Part shown: piece after piece, positions 45,195 to 51,739 of the stretch | Layout of the letters: each line of letters opens with the position of its first letter | Position numbering within the stretch: position 1 is the first letter of the stretch | NCBI RefSeq assembly: GCF_025999095.1 | Contig: NZ_AP024678.1 | Span: 2,139,527 to 2,203,526, forward strand | Source of the DNA: Thermosynechococcus sp. | GTDB lineage: Bacteria > Cyanobacteriota > Cyanobacteriia > Thermosynechococcales > Thermosynechococcaceae | DNA length: 64,000 bases | Direction of reading: 5' to 3' | The notes under the pieces: model-generated | What the model was told of the DNA's origin: nothing | Seen by the model: the letters and a program-made list of their open reading frames with translations, nothing else | Databases searched by the model: none | Made by a program: the position numbers and the translations under genes

Positions 45195-46688
45195 ATGAAC
45201 CTGCGGGAACTCCTGACAGCGGCAGCGATTACACCGGGTTTTGAGCATCCTGCCCTCGATCAAGAGGTGACATCCCTGAGTACGAATTCCTGGGAGTGTG
45301 AGCATGGCTCGTTGTTTATTGGTATGCCCGGCACACGGGTGGAGGGGGGCAATTTTTGGCCGAGTGCCTTGGCGGCAGGGGCGATCGCCGCGGTGGTGTC
45401 TCCCCAAGCCAAACCCGGTGAGGGAGATGCCTGTGTAATTGTGGTGCCCGATATTGAGCGTGCCTGTGGTCGGCTCGCGGCTGCTTTTTATAATTACCCC
45501 AGTCAACATCTCAGCCTGCTAGGGGTTACGGGTACAAACGGCAAAACAACCACCACCCACTTGGTGGAACATCTCCTCAACAGTGTCGGCTTGCCAACAG
45601 CCCTTTTGGGGACGCTCTACAGTCGGTGGCCAGGACACTGTGAGGTGGCCAGCCATACGACGCCCTTTGCGGTGACCCTTCAGGCGCAATTGGCCGCCGC
45701 CGTGGCAGCAGGCTGTCGCTTTGGGGTGATGGAGGTCAGTTCCCATGCCTTAGCGCAGGATCGGGTGTGGGGCTGTCAGTTTGAGGTGGCGGCTTTTACT
45801 AACTTGACCCAAGATCACCTAGACTATCACCGCGATTTGGAGGACTATTTTGCGGCTAAGGCCAAGCTCTTTAGCGCTGACTACCTGAAGGGTCGAGCAA
45901 TTCTCAATGGGGATGATCCCTTTGGCCAGCGACTGGCTCAGCAGTTGTCCCGCGATCGCTACTGGACCTATGGCCTAAGCGAGGATGCCGATTTTCGAGC
46001 TGCGAATCTCAACTATCGCATCAATGGCGTGACGGGCACGGTTCATACCCCCCTCGGCAGCGGCACCCTAGACTCGCCGTTGGTGGGACAGTTTAATGTG
46101 GCCAATGTGCTGGCAGCGATCGCTATGGCAGCAGCGGTAGGGCTCCCCCTTGACGCGATGCTCGAGGCCCTGCGTGACTTTCCAGGGGTACCGGGGCGCA
46201 TGGAGCAGGTGCGCCTTGACCCAGAACAGGACATTACCGTTGTCGTGGACTATGCCCACACCCCTGATAGCCTTGAAAACCTGCTGAGGGCGGCTCGTCC
46301 CTTTATTCCTGGCAAACTGATCTGTGTCTTTGGCTGTGGGGGCGATCGCGATCGCAGCAAACGTCCCCAAATGGGAGCTATTGCCGCTCGCTTGGCGGAT
46401 CAAGTAGTGGTCACCTCGGACAATCCCCGCACTGAGAATCCACAGCGCATTCTCGCTGACATCCTTGCCGGTATCCCACCCGCAACAGCGATGATTGTTG
46501 AGGGCGATCGCCGCCAAGCTATTCGCCAAGCCATTCTGAGCGCCGCCCCCGGCGATGGCGTGATTATTGCCGGTAAAGGCCATGAGGACTACCAAATTCT
46601 CGGTACCGAAAAAGTGCACTTTGACGATCGCGAGGAAGCCCGAAATGCCCTGAAGGAGCGACTCAAACAACCACGGCAGGGGGGCTAA
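45195..46688 (+). CDS. murE: UDP-MurNAc-Ala-Glu-diaminopimelate ligase
   Basis: 497 residues of the Mur ligase family. The ATP loop is GVTGTNGKTTTTHLVEHLL; the carbamylated-Lys and Mg2+ blocks follow (FTNLTQDHLDYH, CGGDRDRSKRPQMG). The meso-diaminopimelate-selecting motif DNPR is present as TSDNPRTENP, so DAP not Lys is added to the murein precursor. Consistent with the Gram-negative type wall of cyanobacteria. Confidence 0.97.
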   Translation: MNLRELLTAAAITPGFEHPALDQEVTSLSTNSWECEHGSLFIGMPGTRVEGGNFWPSALAAGAIAAVVSPQAKPGEGDACVIVVPDIERACGRLAAAFYNYPSQHLSLLGVTGTNGKTTTTHLVEHLLNSVGLPTALLGTLYSRWPGHCEVASHTTPFAVTLQAQLAAAVAAGCRFGVMEVSSHALAQDRVWGCQFEVAAFTNLTQDHLDYHRDLEDYFAAKAKLFSADYLKGRAILNGDDPFGQRLAQQLSRDRYWTYGLSEDADFRAANLNYRINGVTGTVHTPLGSGTLDSPLVGQFNVANVLAAIAMAAAVGLPLDAMLEALRDFPGVPGRMEQVRLDPEQDITVVVDYAHTPDSLENLLRAARPFIPGKLICVFGCGGDRDRSKRPQMGAIAARLADQVVVTSDNPRTENPQRILADILAGIPPATAMIVEGDRRQAIRQAILSAAPGDGVIIAGKGHEDYQILGTEKVHFDDREEARNALKERLKQPRQGG

Positions 46689-46705: not shown

Positions 46706-48202
46706 TTGTTGTTCCAAAGCGAGCAGAGTGTGATTGAGGCAGAGGTTCACCAGCAATTACGGGCATTTTTACGCAGCAGTGGCGATCGCCGGTGGCCTCA
46801 CCATCTCACCTTGGCGCGGTTAGTGGCCCGTGCCCTGCGGCTGCGGCGGGGGTGTTTACTTCAGGTCAGCCAGCGGGCGGTGTTACAACATCGCTATGGC
46901 CTGAGTTATCTGTTGCCGCTGCTGTTGTATTCTGAACCTGCCCTGCTAGTCGTCCCCCAGGAGCGACTAACACGACTACTGCACCAAGAAATTCCTGAAC
47001 TGCTCACCTTCCTTGCCGTCACCAAACCAATTCAGCATAGCCACTGCCCGCCGCCAGTGTTTGAGGGGGTGCTCGTGATGAACCTCGAAGACTGGTGTCG
47101 CCAAGCCACGCCCCACCCCAACGTTGTCACGATTATTGATGGCATCGAAGCCTTGCCCCAAATTGCCCAGCAGCAGATGACCTGCACAATTACCACCAGC
47201 GATTGGGAGCATTTGAAACTAGCGATTCCCAGTGCCGTTGGTGCCATTCGCCAAGTTTATGCCCAGTTGGTGCAACACCTCTTTCAGCGGCCTCAGAATC
47301 CCTATGGCGACTATCTACTCACCTGCACAGAACAGCAACCCCTCCTTGATCTGCTCCATCCATGGCCGCAGTCGCTGCCTCCCCAATGGTCGCAATTGCG
47401 GGACTACCTCAACCGCAGTGACACAGTCATCTGGGGACGCCGCCATCCCACGGTAGGCTACTTTACCCTCCATGGCCACCCCCTGAATTTGCGTCCCTAT
47501 TTTCAGGACATTTGGCGCCAAGCCCCCTTTGTCCTCATTGGCAGCGGACCGGACACAGAGCCGCCCCTGGCCTATGTGCAGCAGGAACTAGGGATTGCGC
47601 CCCAAACGACGATTAAATTTGCCAGCGATCGCCACAGTGAAGCCATTACCCTTGCGATCGCCGAAGACTTACCCCTACCCAATACCCCAGAATTTGCCCC
47701 GGCGGTTTTGCGGCGTCTCTACGATCTCATTGGCATGATTGGCCATCAACGGGCGGTGATCCTGGTCAGCGATGTGCCCCTGCGGGAACAGTTGGCCACC
47801 CAATTGGCTGCCCTCTACGGTTCACGGGTACAGGTGGAGACGACGACCCTTGAGACGAACACGATTTTAGTAACGGGGGAAACCTTTTGGCTGCGTCATG
47901 GGGCCCAATTGCCCTGCCCGGCGCTATTGGTCTTGACGACGTTGCCCTTCCCCTCCCCGGAAAAAGCAGTGGTGAGTGCCCGCATTGAATGGCACAAACG
48001 GCAAAAACAAGACTGGTTTCGTCAGTATCTCTTGCCCGAGTGCTTGACGGTGCTAGATCGTGCCCTTGCCCCTGTACGTCAGGATGATACCTTGGTGGCC
48101 ATTTTGGATCGGCGGCTGACAGAGCGCAGCTATGGCCGCGAAATTCTCCAGAGTCTCAGTCCCTACAACCGCATCAGGGATCGCGCCCAAGCGCGGCATT
48201 GA
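46706..48202 (+). CDS. DinG-like helicase relative lacking ATPase motifs
   Basis: About 498 residues from TTG 46706 (GTG 46730 possible). The C-terminal third matches the DinG/XPD HELICc2 domain: LTTLPFPSPEKAVVSARIEW, YLLPECLTVLDRAL and VAILDRRLTERSYGREIL. The nucleotide motifs are missing. Where DinG has the GTGTGKT loop before YLLP, this protein has AVLQHRYGLSYLLP. The DEAH box is IIDGIE, and the motif VI arginine run (QGxGRxIR) reads RALAPVRQ. It also has no Fe-S cysteine set. It cannot be an active helicase in the usual way, and may bind DNA as a structural factor. It overlaps larE by 29 bp. Confidence 0.75.
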   Translation: MLFQSEQSVIEAEVHQQLRAFLRSSGDRRWPHHLTLARLVARALRLRRGCLLQVSQRAVLQHRYGLSYLLPLLLYSEPALLVVPQERLTRLLHQEIPELLTFLAVTKPIQHSHCPPPVFEGVLVMNLEDWCRQATPHPNVVTIIDGIEALPQIAQQQMTCTITTSDWEHLKLAIPSAVGAIRQVYAQLVQHLFQRPQNPYGDYLLTCTEQQPLLDLLHPWPQSLPPQWSQLRDYLNRSDTVIWGRRHPTVGYFTLHGHPLNLRPYFQDIWRQAPFVLIGSGPDTEPPLAYVQQELGIAPQTTIKFASDRHSEAITLAIAEDLPLPNTPEFAPAVLRRLYDLIGMIGHQRAVILVSDVPLREQLATQLAALYGSRVQVETTTLETNTILVTGETFWLRHGAQLPCPALLVLTTLPFPSPEKAVVSARIEWHKRQKQDWFRQYLLPECLTVLDRALAPVRQDDTLVAILDRRLTERSYGREILQSLSPYNRIRDRAQARH

Positions 48203-48986
48203 GTTTGCCGCTGCGAAAGCCCTCCAGATCCAAAGTGACATAGGTAAAGCCAAGGGACTGAAAGTGATTCACCAGTTGCTCAAGATCCGTCATCGTTACA
48301 AAGTCAGCAATCTGCTGTTGGGGCACCTCAATGCGAGCGGTATCGCCATGACTGCGAACACGACACAGTTCCCAGCCCTGCTTGCGCAGGTAGTATTCGG
48401 CATTGCCCACCCGTTGTAGCTTGGCAAGGGTAATTTCTTCACCGTAGGGAAAGCGCGAACTGAGACAGGGTTGGGCGGGTTTATTCCACCAGGGCAGCCC
48501 TAGGGATTTGGCAATTTCTCGCACTTCTAGCTTGCTAATGCCGACTTCGGCTAGGGGCGATCGCACCCCGCGTTCTTTGGCCGCCGCAATGCCCGGACGA
48601 TAGTCTTGGAGATCATCAGCGTTCACCCCATCAAGAACATACTCATAGCCCCAAGCCTGCGCCAGTTCCCGCAGGCGATCGTGGAGTTCACTTTTGCAAA
48701 AGTAGCAGCGATTCACGGGGTTAGTGGCGTAGTTGGGGTTCTCCAGTTCGTGGGTTTCAATGAGTTCGTGGCGAATGCCAATGGCCGCTGCCTGAATGCG
48801 CGCATCCTCTAGATCCGCTGGCAATAGGGAAGGGGACACGGCCGTGACCGCCACAGCGCGATCGCCCAAGACATCCTGAGCAACCTTGGCCACGAGGGTA
48901 CTATCAATGCCACCGGAGTAGGCAATCAGGGCTCGATCCAGTTGACCAATGAGATCGCGTAAGGCCGCTAGTTTGTCCACGCCCAT
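48174..48986 (-). CDS. larE: ATP-dependent sulfur transferase LarE
   Basis: About 270 residues. The pyrophosphatase loop is AYSGGIDSTLVAKVA. Three cysteines are conserved: CxxC at 95 and 98 (NRCYFCKSEL) and C175 (PCLSSRFPYG). In LarE of some bacteria the single Cys gives up its sulfur; the three-Cys form holds a [4Fe-4S] cluster and acts catalytically, which this sequence would fit. LarE thiolates pyridinium dicarboxylate to make the nickel-pincer cofactor of lactate racemase. larB, larC and larA are not in the window. Confidence 0.9.
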   Translation of the reverse strand: MGVDKLAALRDLIGQLDRALIAYSGGIDSTLVAKVAQDVLGDRAVAVTAVSPSLLPADLEDARIQAAAIGIRHELIETHELENPNYATNPVNRCYFCKSELHDRLRELAQAWGYEYVLDGVNADDLQDYRPGIAAAKERGVRSPLAEVGISKLEVREIAKSLGLPWWNKPAQPCLSSRFPYGEEITLAKLQRVGNAEYYLRKQGWELCRVRSHGDTARIEVPQQQIADFVTMTDLEQLVNHFQSLGFTYVTLDLEGFRSGKLNAALGRDP

Positions 48987-49091
48987 CACCGACCAATTTT
49001 CTGAGAATTCTGCTTCTACAGTGTAGCTTAGGGATGGGAGCAGAAGGCTGAGGCAGCCGTTGCCAAACGCTGCGAGTGCTCCCCCCTGCTC

Positions 49092-49138: not shown

Positions 49139-49279
49139 ATGGGAATTTTCAATGGTATTATTGAGTTTCTTAGCAATATCAACTTTGAAGTCATTGCCCA
49201 ACTCACCATGATTGCCATGATTGGCATTGCAGGGCCAATGATTATTTTCCTGTTGGCCGTGCGTCGCGGCAATTTGTAA
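49139..49279 (+). CDS. psb30: photosystem II reaction centre protein Psb30 (Ycf12)
   Basis: A 46-residue single-span thylakoid protein: MGIFNGIIEFLSNINFEVIA, then a TM helix and the basic end AVRRGNL. This matches Ycf12/Psb30, which sits at the periphery of PSII near cytochrome b559 and PsbZ. CGGGAGA lies six bases before the ATG. Its last 38 bp overlap the 3' end of recJ on the other strand. Confidence 0.93.
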   Translation: MGIFNGIIEFLSNINFEVIAQLTMIAMIGIAGPMIIFLLAVRRGNL

Positions 49280-51569
49280 GCCATTTCTTTTTCAAAGCTT
49301 TGGCAGTCCCCCACGTTTGCGCTAACCGGGCCAAATCCTTGGCCTGCAGCTGATACCAGCGTTGCAATCGTGCCAGTTCTTCGGTCATGCTCAGGGTGGG
49401 GGCAAATTCTTCGCAGCCATAGCCCAGATGGCGTAGGATCGCGACCAGCGTACAGGGGGCAATCCAATAGGTCTGACTCCAGGCTAAAAGATTTACTTTA
49501 GTCCCTGCGGTGGCCTTGAGCTCATTTTGAATCGAAAGGATGAGGGTTGGTAGGGGGGCGATCGCGGGTCGTTGGTTTCCGACATAGACGATTTCGGGCT
49601 GGGCAATGGCCAATAGCCAACGCAAATGGGTCCAAGAGGGCGGCAGCGACCAGAGGATGAGGGTACGACAGCGATCGCGGGGGCGATCGTAATGAATCCT
49701 GGCCGTGGTCAAGTTGGGCGGTACCTCAGGGCGGCCATAGCCATAGAGCAAGACAGGGTCGCGCAACTGCGGTAGGAGCGTTGTCAAAGGTGGTAGGGGT
49801 TGCCAACTGGGAAGCGGGTGACTCGGTGGCTCGGGGACGTCCCACGCCAGTGAGGGTTTGATGCCCTTCAGTTCGAGTTCCAACTGGGTTTCGCCATTCC
49901 AAGTGTGGGCTGTGAGGTGATAGGCAATATCTACCCTGGTCGGCAACGGCAACAATGGTCCCCAGCGCCAAGCCTTGGCGGTCATCTGCTGCCCATTCTG
50001 CTCTAGGGTGAGTTTCAGGTGCTCCCCCTGCTGACCCATGGGCGTTTGTTCGCGGATCTTGACCCCGCGACTGCAGAAAATAGGCTGAGGATTCTCACTG
50101 CCAAAGGGTTGCAATTGCTCCACTTGAGTGTAAAAGTCCCAGGTCAGTTGCGCAAAGGAGATTTCGGCATCAAGGGTGACCAGGGGACGCAGATCCTCGG
50201 GCTTGAGACAGGTTTGGGCAAAGGCCCGCAGGCGATCGCGCCAAGCTGCTAAATGCTCCGCCCGGAGGCTAAATCCGCCGGCCGCCTTATGACCGCCATA
50301 TTTCAACAGCAAGTCCTTGGTTGCCTCAAGAGCCTCAAAAACATGGAATTCTGGAATACCGCGAATTGAGCCACGAATTGTCGTCTCATCTTCATAGGTG
50401 CCAATAAACACAGGTACGCCGTAGCGCTCCACAAGACGGGAGGCCACAATGCCAATGACCCCATGGTGCCAGTTGGGCTGGACAATCACCAAAACCCACT
50501 CCTGTTGGGGATCAAAAGCCGTCTCTTCGAGGTGGGCGATCGCCGCCGCTTCAATCTCGGCACAGAGATCCTGACGGCGACGGTTAGTTGCCTCACAGAG
50601 GGCTGCCAGCTTCTGAGCCCGGGCTGGATCATCCGTTGTTAACAGTTCAATCACCACTTGCGGATCCCCAATTCGGCCGATGGCATTGATCCGTGGTCCG
50701 AGGCGAAACCCGATGGCGGTGGGTTTCAAAGAGGCCTCCTGCTCAGGCAAACAGCGCGCCATCTGCATCAGCGCTTGGACGCCCACCAGGGGAGAGGTGG
50801 GAAGGGTTTGCAATCCCTGCTTGACCCAGCGGCGATTCACCCCCGTCAAGGGAGCCAGATCGGCAATTGTGCCCAGGGTACACAGCTCCCGCAAAGGCCG
50901 CACCAGTGGCCGCCAGTTGCCCAATCGCTGTGCCAGGGACACAGCAAGGATATAGGCCATCCCCACCCCCGCGAGGGTATGGTAAGGAGAGGTCGGGGAA
51001 ACGAGTTTTGGATTGAGAATGGCATGGGCAGGCGGCAGTTGCGGCGGCACATCGTGGTGATCCGTCACAATTACCGTCAGTCCCAGTTCCCGCGCCTTAA
51101 GAATAGGTTGGAGGGCAGCAATGCCGTTGTCCACGGTGAGAATCAGTTTGACGCCCCGGTCGTAGCACTCCTGCACAATCCGCTCATTGATGCCATAGCC
51201 TTCATGCAGGCGCGAGGGAATTTCATAGTCAATGTCTGCTCCCAGATGGCGCAGGGCACGCAACAGCAGGGCGGTACTCGTCATGCCATCAGCATCGTAA
51301 TCGCCACAAATAGTCATCTTGTCACCGTGGGCGATCGCCCGTTGCAGCAATTCCACCGCTAAATCCAGGTCAGGAAAGACTGTGTTGGGCGGCGGTAGCT
51401 CTAGGGTTTCCGGTTCGAGAAACGCCCGTACGGCTGTAGGGGTTGTGAGACCCCGCCGCAAATAAATTTCCGCCAGCGATGAGGGGCAACCCAGCGCCCG
51501 CCTCAAGGCGTCACGACACTCAGGATCAATCGGTGGCAAGAGCCAACGTTGCCGGGGAAGAACACCCAT
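49242..51569 (-). CDS. recJ: single-stranded-DNA-specific exonuclease RecJ, C-terminally extended
   Basis: 775 residues from ATG 51569 (MGVLPRQRWLLPP, the usual RecJ opening); the frame continues to 51662. DHH-family metal motifs are intact: ICGDYDADGMTSTALL and VIVTDHHDVPP, then the DHHA1 part with KYGGHKAAGGFSL and the OB-fold. RecJ digests 5' ends in recombination and repair. The extra 200 residues at the C-terminus (after about 575) are unlike E. coli RecJ and typical of longer cyanobacterial forms. No strong ribosome site seen. Confidence 0.93.
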   Translation of the reverse strand: MGVLPRQRWLLPPIDPECRDALRRALGCPSSLAEIYLRRGLTTPTAVRAFLEPETLELPPPNTVFPDLDLAVELLQRAIAHGDKMTICGDYDADGMTSTALLLRALRHLGADIDYEIPSRLHEGYGINERIVQECYDRGVKLILTVDNGIAALQPILKARELGLTVIVTDHHDVPPQLPPAHAILNPKLVSPTSPYHTLAGVGMAYILAVSLAQRLGNWRPLVRPLRELCTLGTIADLAPLTGVNRRWVKQGLQTLPTSPLVGVQALMQMARCLPEQEASLKPTAIGFRLGPRINAIGRIGDPQVVIELLTTDDPARAQKLAALCEATNRRRQDLCAEIEAAAIAHLEETAFDPQQEWVLVIVQPNWHHGVIGIVASRLVERYGVPVFIGTYEDETTIRGSIRGIPEFHVFEALEATKDLLLKYGGHKAAGGFSLRAEHLAAWRDRLRAFAQTCLKPEDLRPLVTLDAEISFAQLTWDFYTQVEQLQPFGSENPQPIFCSRGVKIREQTPMGQQGEHLKLTLEQNGQQMTAKAWRWGPLLPLPTRVDIAYHLTAHTWNGETQLELELKGIKPSLAWDVPEPPSHPLPSWQPLPPLTTLLPQLRDPVLLYGYGRPEVPPNLTTARIHYDRPRDRCRTLILWSLPPSWTHLRWLLAIAQPEIVYVGNQRPAIAPLPTLILSIQNELKATAGTKVNLLAWSQTYWIAPCTLVAILRHLGYGCEEFAPTLSMTEELARLQRWYQLQAKDLARLAQTWGTAKALKKKWLTNCRDARPTGK

Positions 51570-51739
51570 GATGCGGAGGGGGGAGATAGGAAAAGCGACA
51601 ACCCCAATGCTAACTTGAGCATGGCTTTGGTTGACACCCTGAAAAAGTAGAATGATAATCATTACAAATCACTCCAGTTCTTATTTAGCCTGGGTGAACT
51701 CCCCAGGCAGTCTTTTGGTGTGAGGCTAGGAGGGCAGTT

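Follow-up and report, generated by a model that had tools for sequence, protein, structure and literature searches.

The closest described proteins are the short-type DinG proteins (sDinG), which were defined in a 2025 review of bacterial DinG-like proteins as a type whose function is unstudied, and which its main text reports from the orders Nostocales, Chroococcidiopsidales and Pleurocapsales (PMC11981726). As described there, sDinG is made of MD1, MD2 and a compact Arch, and has neither an Fe-S or pFeS domain nor the ATP-binding residues. The Nostoc sDinG carries an extra helix, alpha3a, between beta1 and alpha3, at the ATP site, and in an AlphaFold3 prediction of that protein the DNA was placed on the MD2 (HD2) lobe only and ATP could not be placed (PMC11981726).

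By the description in the main text of the review, the product of the open reading frame at 46706-48202 (+) in the window (the whole 64,000-nt stretch of Thermosynechococcus sp. contig NZ_AP024678.1 that was analysed) belongs to this already named sDinG family. Like the sDinG of the review, the Thermosynechococcus protein is without the Fe-S columns and the ATP-binding residues. Unlike the three orders given in that main text, the sDinG reported here spans Cyanobacteriia, including Thermosynechococcus, Prochlorococcus and Gloeobacterales. To the main text of PMC11981726 we add this class-wide range, an origin before the crown of the class, intermediate forms, the selection acting on the gene and its linkage to DUF2839 and DUF1815.

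A shortened DinG-family gene and its predicted fold

The frame is uninterrupted and encodes a DinG-family product. Helicase_C_2 is matched at the C-terminus of the ORF (aa 407-486) with 33.4 bits, above the curated cut-off, and the closest named model by score is NCBIfam YoaA (aa 221-497 of the ORF), with 76.9 bits, which is far below that family's cut-off of 680. The open frame with a C-terminal DinG signature, on which the original prediction was built, is thus borne out. The start is almost certainly GTG 46730, replacing TTG 46706, which was rejected since the start codons of the orthologues point to the former: at this codon, which opens 'V/M-I-E-V-E-V-H' in orthologues, GTG is found in 44 of 46, with TTG and ATG once each, a pattern typical of a start codon. 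The protein therefore has 490 aa, and the sDinG-type pseudo-helicase gene, with its GTG start, covers 46730..48202 (+, stop included), an annotation that rests on the 46 orthologues and on an AlphaFold2 (AF2) model.

The gene had been taken to be full length, which it is not. Active relatives mostly have ~630-730 aa; this protein has no Fe-S region, and by the alignment its motifs II and III lie ~37 aa closer together than those of YoaA. The alignment gap puts the junction of the Fe-S cysteine domain deletion at ~aa 103-113 (47036..47068, +), and where YoaA has C168 and C173 all aligned pseudo-forms show a gap.

The template-free AF2 model, made from an alignment of 61 orthologues, has a mean pLDDT of 90 and a pTM of 0.87. 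Its best PDB matches are the E. coli DinG-ssDNA complexes 6fws and 6fwr (E ~1e-19), followed in order by CRISPR-associated DinG, S. aureus DinG and XPD, and against the DinG structures the TM score, normalised by query length, goes up to 0.73. Two RecA-like lobes and the Helicase_C_2 C-terminus are present, by the model and the profile match, and the predicted structure thus does resemble DinG, as the original prediction implied. A single-sequence search of PDB sequences gave nothing real, but the profile search did find DinG.

Lost, retained and rebuilt residues

Motif losses were judged against E. coli DinG, YoaA and intact DinG proteins from the cyanobacterial phylum, with motif counts taken over 155 distinct relatives and the finer residue counts over 34 aligned pseudo-forms. 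Walker A, DEAH, motif VI and the Fe-S cysteine pattern are found at their places in 0/155 relatives, and the regular-expression motif matches in five proteins fall elsewhere in the chain. By the alignment, Walker A, DEAH, motif III, motif V (WEG) and motif VI are all gone from the Thermosynechococcus protein, so that the claimed loss of Walker A, DEAH and motif VI stands and can be extended to WEG and the Fe-S insert.

In the former Q-motif region (WPHHLT, aa 22-27, 46793..46810, +) the Arg of the active forms (R21 of YoaA) has become Trp22, which is present in 34/34 pseudo-forms. The lost Walker A, or motif I, site (LLQVSQRAVLQHRYGLSYL, aa 43-61, 46856..46912, +) has no Gly-Lys-Ser/Thr, its GTGxGKS is replaced by a longer, variable loop, and the P-loop Lys is Y, H or W in all 155 relatives. 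Around this place the AF2 model predicts the secondary structure E42-46, H48-52, H57-66, so that an extra short helix (aa 48-52, 46871..46885, +) follows beta1 and takes the place of the P-loop; this predicted helix resembles the alpha3a described in the review for the Nostoc sDinG. At motif II (aa 137-140, 47138..47149, +), the alignment shows DGIE as the remnant of DEAH. The family form is DGxE/D, in which the catalytic Glu has usually become Gly (135/155) and the Asp is retained in 139/155.

The lost motif III site reads GSGP for SATL (aa 271-274, 47540..47551, +; alignment), and the lost motif V site FWLRHG for FWEGVD (aa 386-391, 47885..47902, +), where the E and G are lost and Trp387 is kept in 154 of the 155 relatives. 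Motif VI appears remade, in an alignment uncertain by one residue, as DRALAPVR against QGxGRLIR (aa 443-450, 48056..48079, +) with loss of the arginine-finger GR; the family consensus is QRAIAPVR, QxxGRxxR occurs in 0/155, and R450 is a new residue found in 34/34. The pseudo-forms have also lost R117 and R211 of DinG, which are DNA contacts of the Fe-S region and HD1, and most of them have Leu or Ile for F615.

What has been kept is of another kind. Among the 101 columns that are invariant in active DinG, 21 are kept in the pseudo-forms; these are structural residues and HD2 elements, including P406, F430, D460, R462, Y468 and G469, and none is catalytic. The P motif of the HD2 ssDNA channel is retained (TLPFPSPEKA, aa 404-413, 47939..47968, +), with Pro406 in 34/34 and Pro408 in 31/34 pseudo-forms, as are D428-W429-F430 (48011..48019, +), with both W429 and F430 in 34/34, and the C-terminal DinG signature DxR...RxYG (aa 460-469, 48107..48136, +), with D460 and R462 in 155/155 and Y468 in 150/155 relatives. 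The E. coli DinG equivalent of the P motif, 614-AFPPID-619, shapes the ssDNA channel and contacts ssDNA, and F638, with which F430 aligns, stacks on the deoxyribose of the bound ssDNA (PMC6300356). The family has a median pI of 6.3 and is not notably basic.

At the old ATP site itself there are new conserved residues, namely R21->W22 (34/34), E44->Q45 (31/34), R583->P448 (29/34) and I585->R450 (34/34), and to judge from the alignment the changes there are remodelling, not mere erosion. Since these rebuilt residues are conserved, some ligand could bind at the site, and the frequent retention of the DEAH Asp might be taken to mean that sDinG has retained some unorthodox form of nucleotide binding or hydrolysis. 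However, the P-loop Lys, the DEAH Glu, motif III, motif V and the motif VI Arg are all absent, and an extra helix is predicted to fill the P-loop place, both in our AF2 model and in what the review describes for Nostoc (PMC11981726); we regard such an activity as very unlikely.

Range, origin and selection

The gene is carried by 39/39 of the nearest genomes, and orthologues were found in 124 of the 135 genomes sampled across Cyanobacteriia, the named loci reaching from Leptolyngbya to Nostoc to Microcystis. The Nostocaceae orthologues (L102, L113 and L121) are 43-44% identical, and L102 falls in the same clade of the tree. Chance is excluded, because all 39 relatives carry the gene and all those aligned show the same losses. 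Within the genus, dN/dS is 0.08-0.17, and sDinG is under purifying selection. The loss of the catalytic motifs in this genome could by itself have come from recent decay, the gene being a pseudogene, but this is refuted by the class-wide orthologues with the same losses, the open frames and the low dN/dS, and its probability is practically nil. Together with the DinG-like fold and the new invariant residues, the shared losses and the low dN/dS support well the claim of the original prediction that selection has kept the gene for a non-enzymatic role. A mobile-element origin was also rejected, the phage and plasmid matches being ordinary distant DinG helicases (22-38% over part of the protein).

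The 11 sampled genomes without sDinG are every sampled member of one family, f24 (10 genomes), and one genome that is 87% complete. No substitute DinG-family protein was found in f24, apart from one weak 853-aa match in G094. Loss of photosynthesis as the reason for the absence was rejected, since f24 carries Photo_RC genes.

In the maximum-likelihood tree all dead forms make up one clade (support 100/100), in which the Gloeobacterales copies branch first. These copies keep a half-eroded motif II (DRAH, DGAH or DQAH), and one keeps GVGRIR; these half-eroded motifs are intermediate stages. Given the single clade, the first branching of Gloeobacterales and the half-eroded motifs, the dead DinG forms have a single origin, and the loss of the motor predates the crown of Cyanobacteriia. 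In the Gloeobacterales, with both active and dying forms, one can see how an enzyme turned into a pseudo-enzyme.

Intact DinG, mostly of ~640 aa, is present in the non-photosynthetic members of the phylum, and Gloeobacterales-like genomes (f14, f33 and f30) carry it together with the dead form. This coexistence would fit a regulatory action of the dead paralogue on the active DinG, and such regulation could have been the ancestral role of the pseudo-form. However, no other DinG-family protein was found in this Thermosynechococcus genome and most of the class likewise has the pseudo-form as its sole DinG-family protein; as a general role, regulation of an active DinG was rejected, and we hold it to be exceedingly improbable.

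The intact genes of the Gloeobacterales-like genomes lie at L197:7821-10004 (G035), L199:7334-9220 (G110) and L035:1447-3399 (G080), and their products have Ser in place of the first Fe-S cysteine (GRSHYVS/GRSHYLS). Outside Gloeobacterales, an intact DinG of 669 aa is present besides sDinG at L037 (G042, family f21). It groups with the Gloeobacterales DinG, though on a long branch, and may thus have been transferred or be the only copy to survive. In small-genome members of f2 (L201 and L202, from the Prochlorococcus-like G107 and G023), sDinG is strongly accelerated.

Neighbouring genes and the proposed role

In the genus Thermosynechococcus the usual order of genes around sDinG is broken. 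The murE gene (Mur ligase, with Pfam Mur_ligase domains; 45195..46688, +) ends 41 nt upstream of the sDinG gene; it is a neighbour in this genus and is not among the recurrent ones elsewhere. On the other side is a convergent PP-loop ATPase gene (48174..48989, -; Pfam NAD_synthase, 27 bits; LarE-like by eye), whose 3' end overlaps the sDinG gene by 29 nt. Two genes downstream of sDinG in this genus is recJ (49242-51662 of the window, -), which is not recurrent elsewhere.

Across the class, DUF2839, whose 70 aa include a hydrophobic stretch, is encoded directly after sDinG on the same strand in 62/94 loci (Pfam), for example ~56 nt after it in L100. DUF1815 is downstream on the same strand in 47/98 loci (Pfam), and a comparison of coordinates makes it a close neighbour of sDinG in ~15 families. 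The tyrA gene is divergent and upstream in 34/98 loci, and recA is convergent and downstream in 12/98, including Prochlorococcus. An RNA gene as the explanation of the conserved sDinG-DUF1815 spacing was rejected, since Rfam has none near and the DUF2839 gene fills the gap. In one genome resembling S. elongatus, the IsrR antisense RNA, a regulator of isiA, lies ~2 kb away from the sDinG gene (L195:4819-5005, -).

DUF1815 is a highly conserved protein of 114 aa with a CxxC (L070:10240-10581 and 46 other loci; G000:C1:489361-489657 in this genome), and its mean identity among the sDinG neighbours is 80%. The predicted fold (pLDDT 87) has no PDB match with E below 0.001 and was dropped as a functional clue. 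DUF1815 is present in 113 of the 135 class genomes and in none of the f24 genomes. It is also absent in Prochlorococcus, where a fast-evolving sDinG persists, and in Thermosynechococcus the two genes are unlinked. With one co-absence event, and with DUF1815 missing in Prochlorococcus, the co-absence is therefore a lead, not proof. That f24 lost the entire cluster in one deletion is unsupported, since DUF2839 is kept there in 10/10 genomes.

This retention also means that DUF2839 and sDinG are separable, which bears on whether sDinG could have an RNA-directed or other non-DNA role, such as transcript binding or a membrane-linked process with DUF2839. The position of DUF2839, with its hydrophobic stretch, directly after sDinG would fit such a role, and losing the deoxyribose-stacking F615 in most members could relax DNA specificity. 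However, F430, the other deoxyribose-stacking residue by its alignment with DinG F638, is invariant, and f24 retains DUF2839 where sDinG is missing; we find a role of this kind quite unlikely.

The reading that we tentatively favour, with a chance of being right that falls only a little short of even, is that sDinG, a DinG/XPD-family motor dead before the crown of Cyanobacteriia, has been kept as an ATP-independent ssDNA-binding or scaffold factor. The HD2 half would still offer an ssDNA channel, formed by the P motif and the W-F pair, and the old ATP cleft would be plugged by the extra helix and the rebuilt W22, Q45, P448 and R450, so that the two RecA-like lobes would no longer cycle. The protein may then bind ssDNA, or a fork or gap, without ATP, and may mark DNA or recruit a partner in replication or repair, DUF1815 being a weak candidate for that partner.

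A role in DNA binding, replication or repair, as originally proposed, is plausible in view of the retained HD2 residues and the homology of the fold, and the recurrence of recA as a convergent neighbour counts for genome maintenance. Against the favoured reading, the HD1 and Fe-S DNA contacts are lost, F615 is changed in most members and the family is not notably basic; since active DinG also conserves P406, W429 and F430, these could have been retained for folding alone. A photosynthetic family (f24, 10/10 genomes) lives without the gene, and tyrA and DUF2839 as neighbours give no hint of a DNA function.

The main rival, which we consider possible if rather doubtful, is that sDinG acts as a protein-protein scaffold or regulator alone, without nucleic-acid binding, with DUF1815, the clamp-loader, SSB or a repair protein. 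The loss of the HD1 and Fe-S DNA contacts and of most DinG-invariant columns agrees with this, as do the new invariants, which are not those of active DinG and are spread over both lobes, and the recurrence of DUF1815 downstream together with its absence from the sDinG-less family; E. coli YoaA, moreover, acts bound to the clamp-loader protein HolC (PMC8378479). However, elements of the HD2 ssDNA channel are among the most conserved positions, and as evidence for a partner DUF1815 suffers from a co-absence that is a single event, from the Prochlorococcus genomes that keep sDinG without it and from the lack of linkage in Thermosynechococcus.

For annotation, names such as 'ATP-dependent helicase' would be wrong for the sDinG family. 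The natural absence of sDinG in one photosynthetic family and the DUF1815 link are leads that can be tested in the cyanobacteria commonly used in laboratories.

Among known proteins, the E. coli DNA repair helicase YoaA has the HD2 signature and the C-terminus in common with sDinG and, unlike it, has Walker A, DEAH, motif VI and the Fe-S cysteines and works with HolC. E. coli DinG is the best structural match (6fwr, 6fws), and its P motif and the equivalent of F638 are kept in sDinG; unlike sDinG, it is an active, ATP-driven Fe-S helicase with R117, R211 and the NTP motifs. In RecC and in the helicase-like domain of AddB, a dead helicase fold has been put to new use, holding or reading DNA as part of a complex. 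The likeness to sDinG is an analogy in how they work, since RecC and AddB are of Superfamily 1 whereas sDinG is of the DinG/XPD group, and it does not reach to a nuclease complex or sequence recognition, for which sDinG offers no evidence. It is conceivable, though unlikely, that the dead DinG and its partner DUF1815 form a factor that maintains the genome without ATP in all cyanobacteria, as a scaffold that reads DNA much as RecC does, though independently built from XPD/DinG. The sDinG protein is a single-copy pseudo-helicase, conserved class-wide since before the crown, and the sole DinG-family protein in most cyanobacteria.
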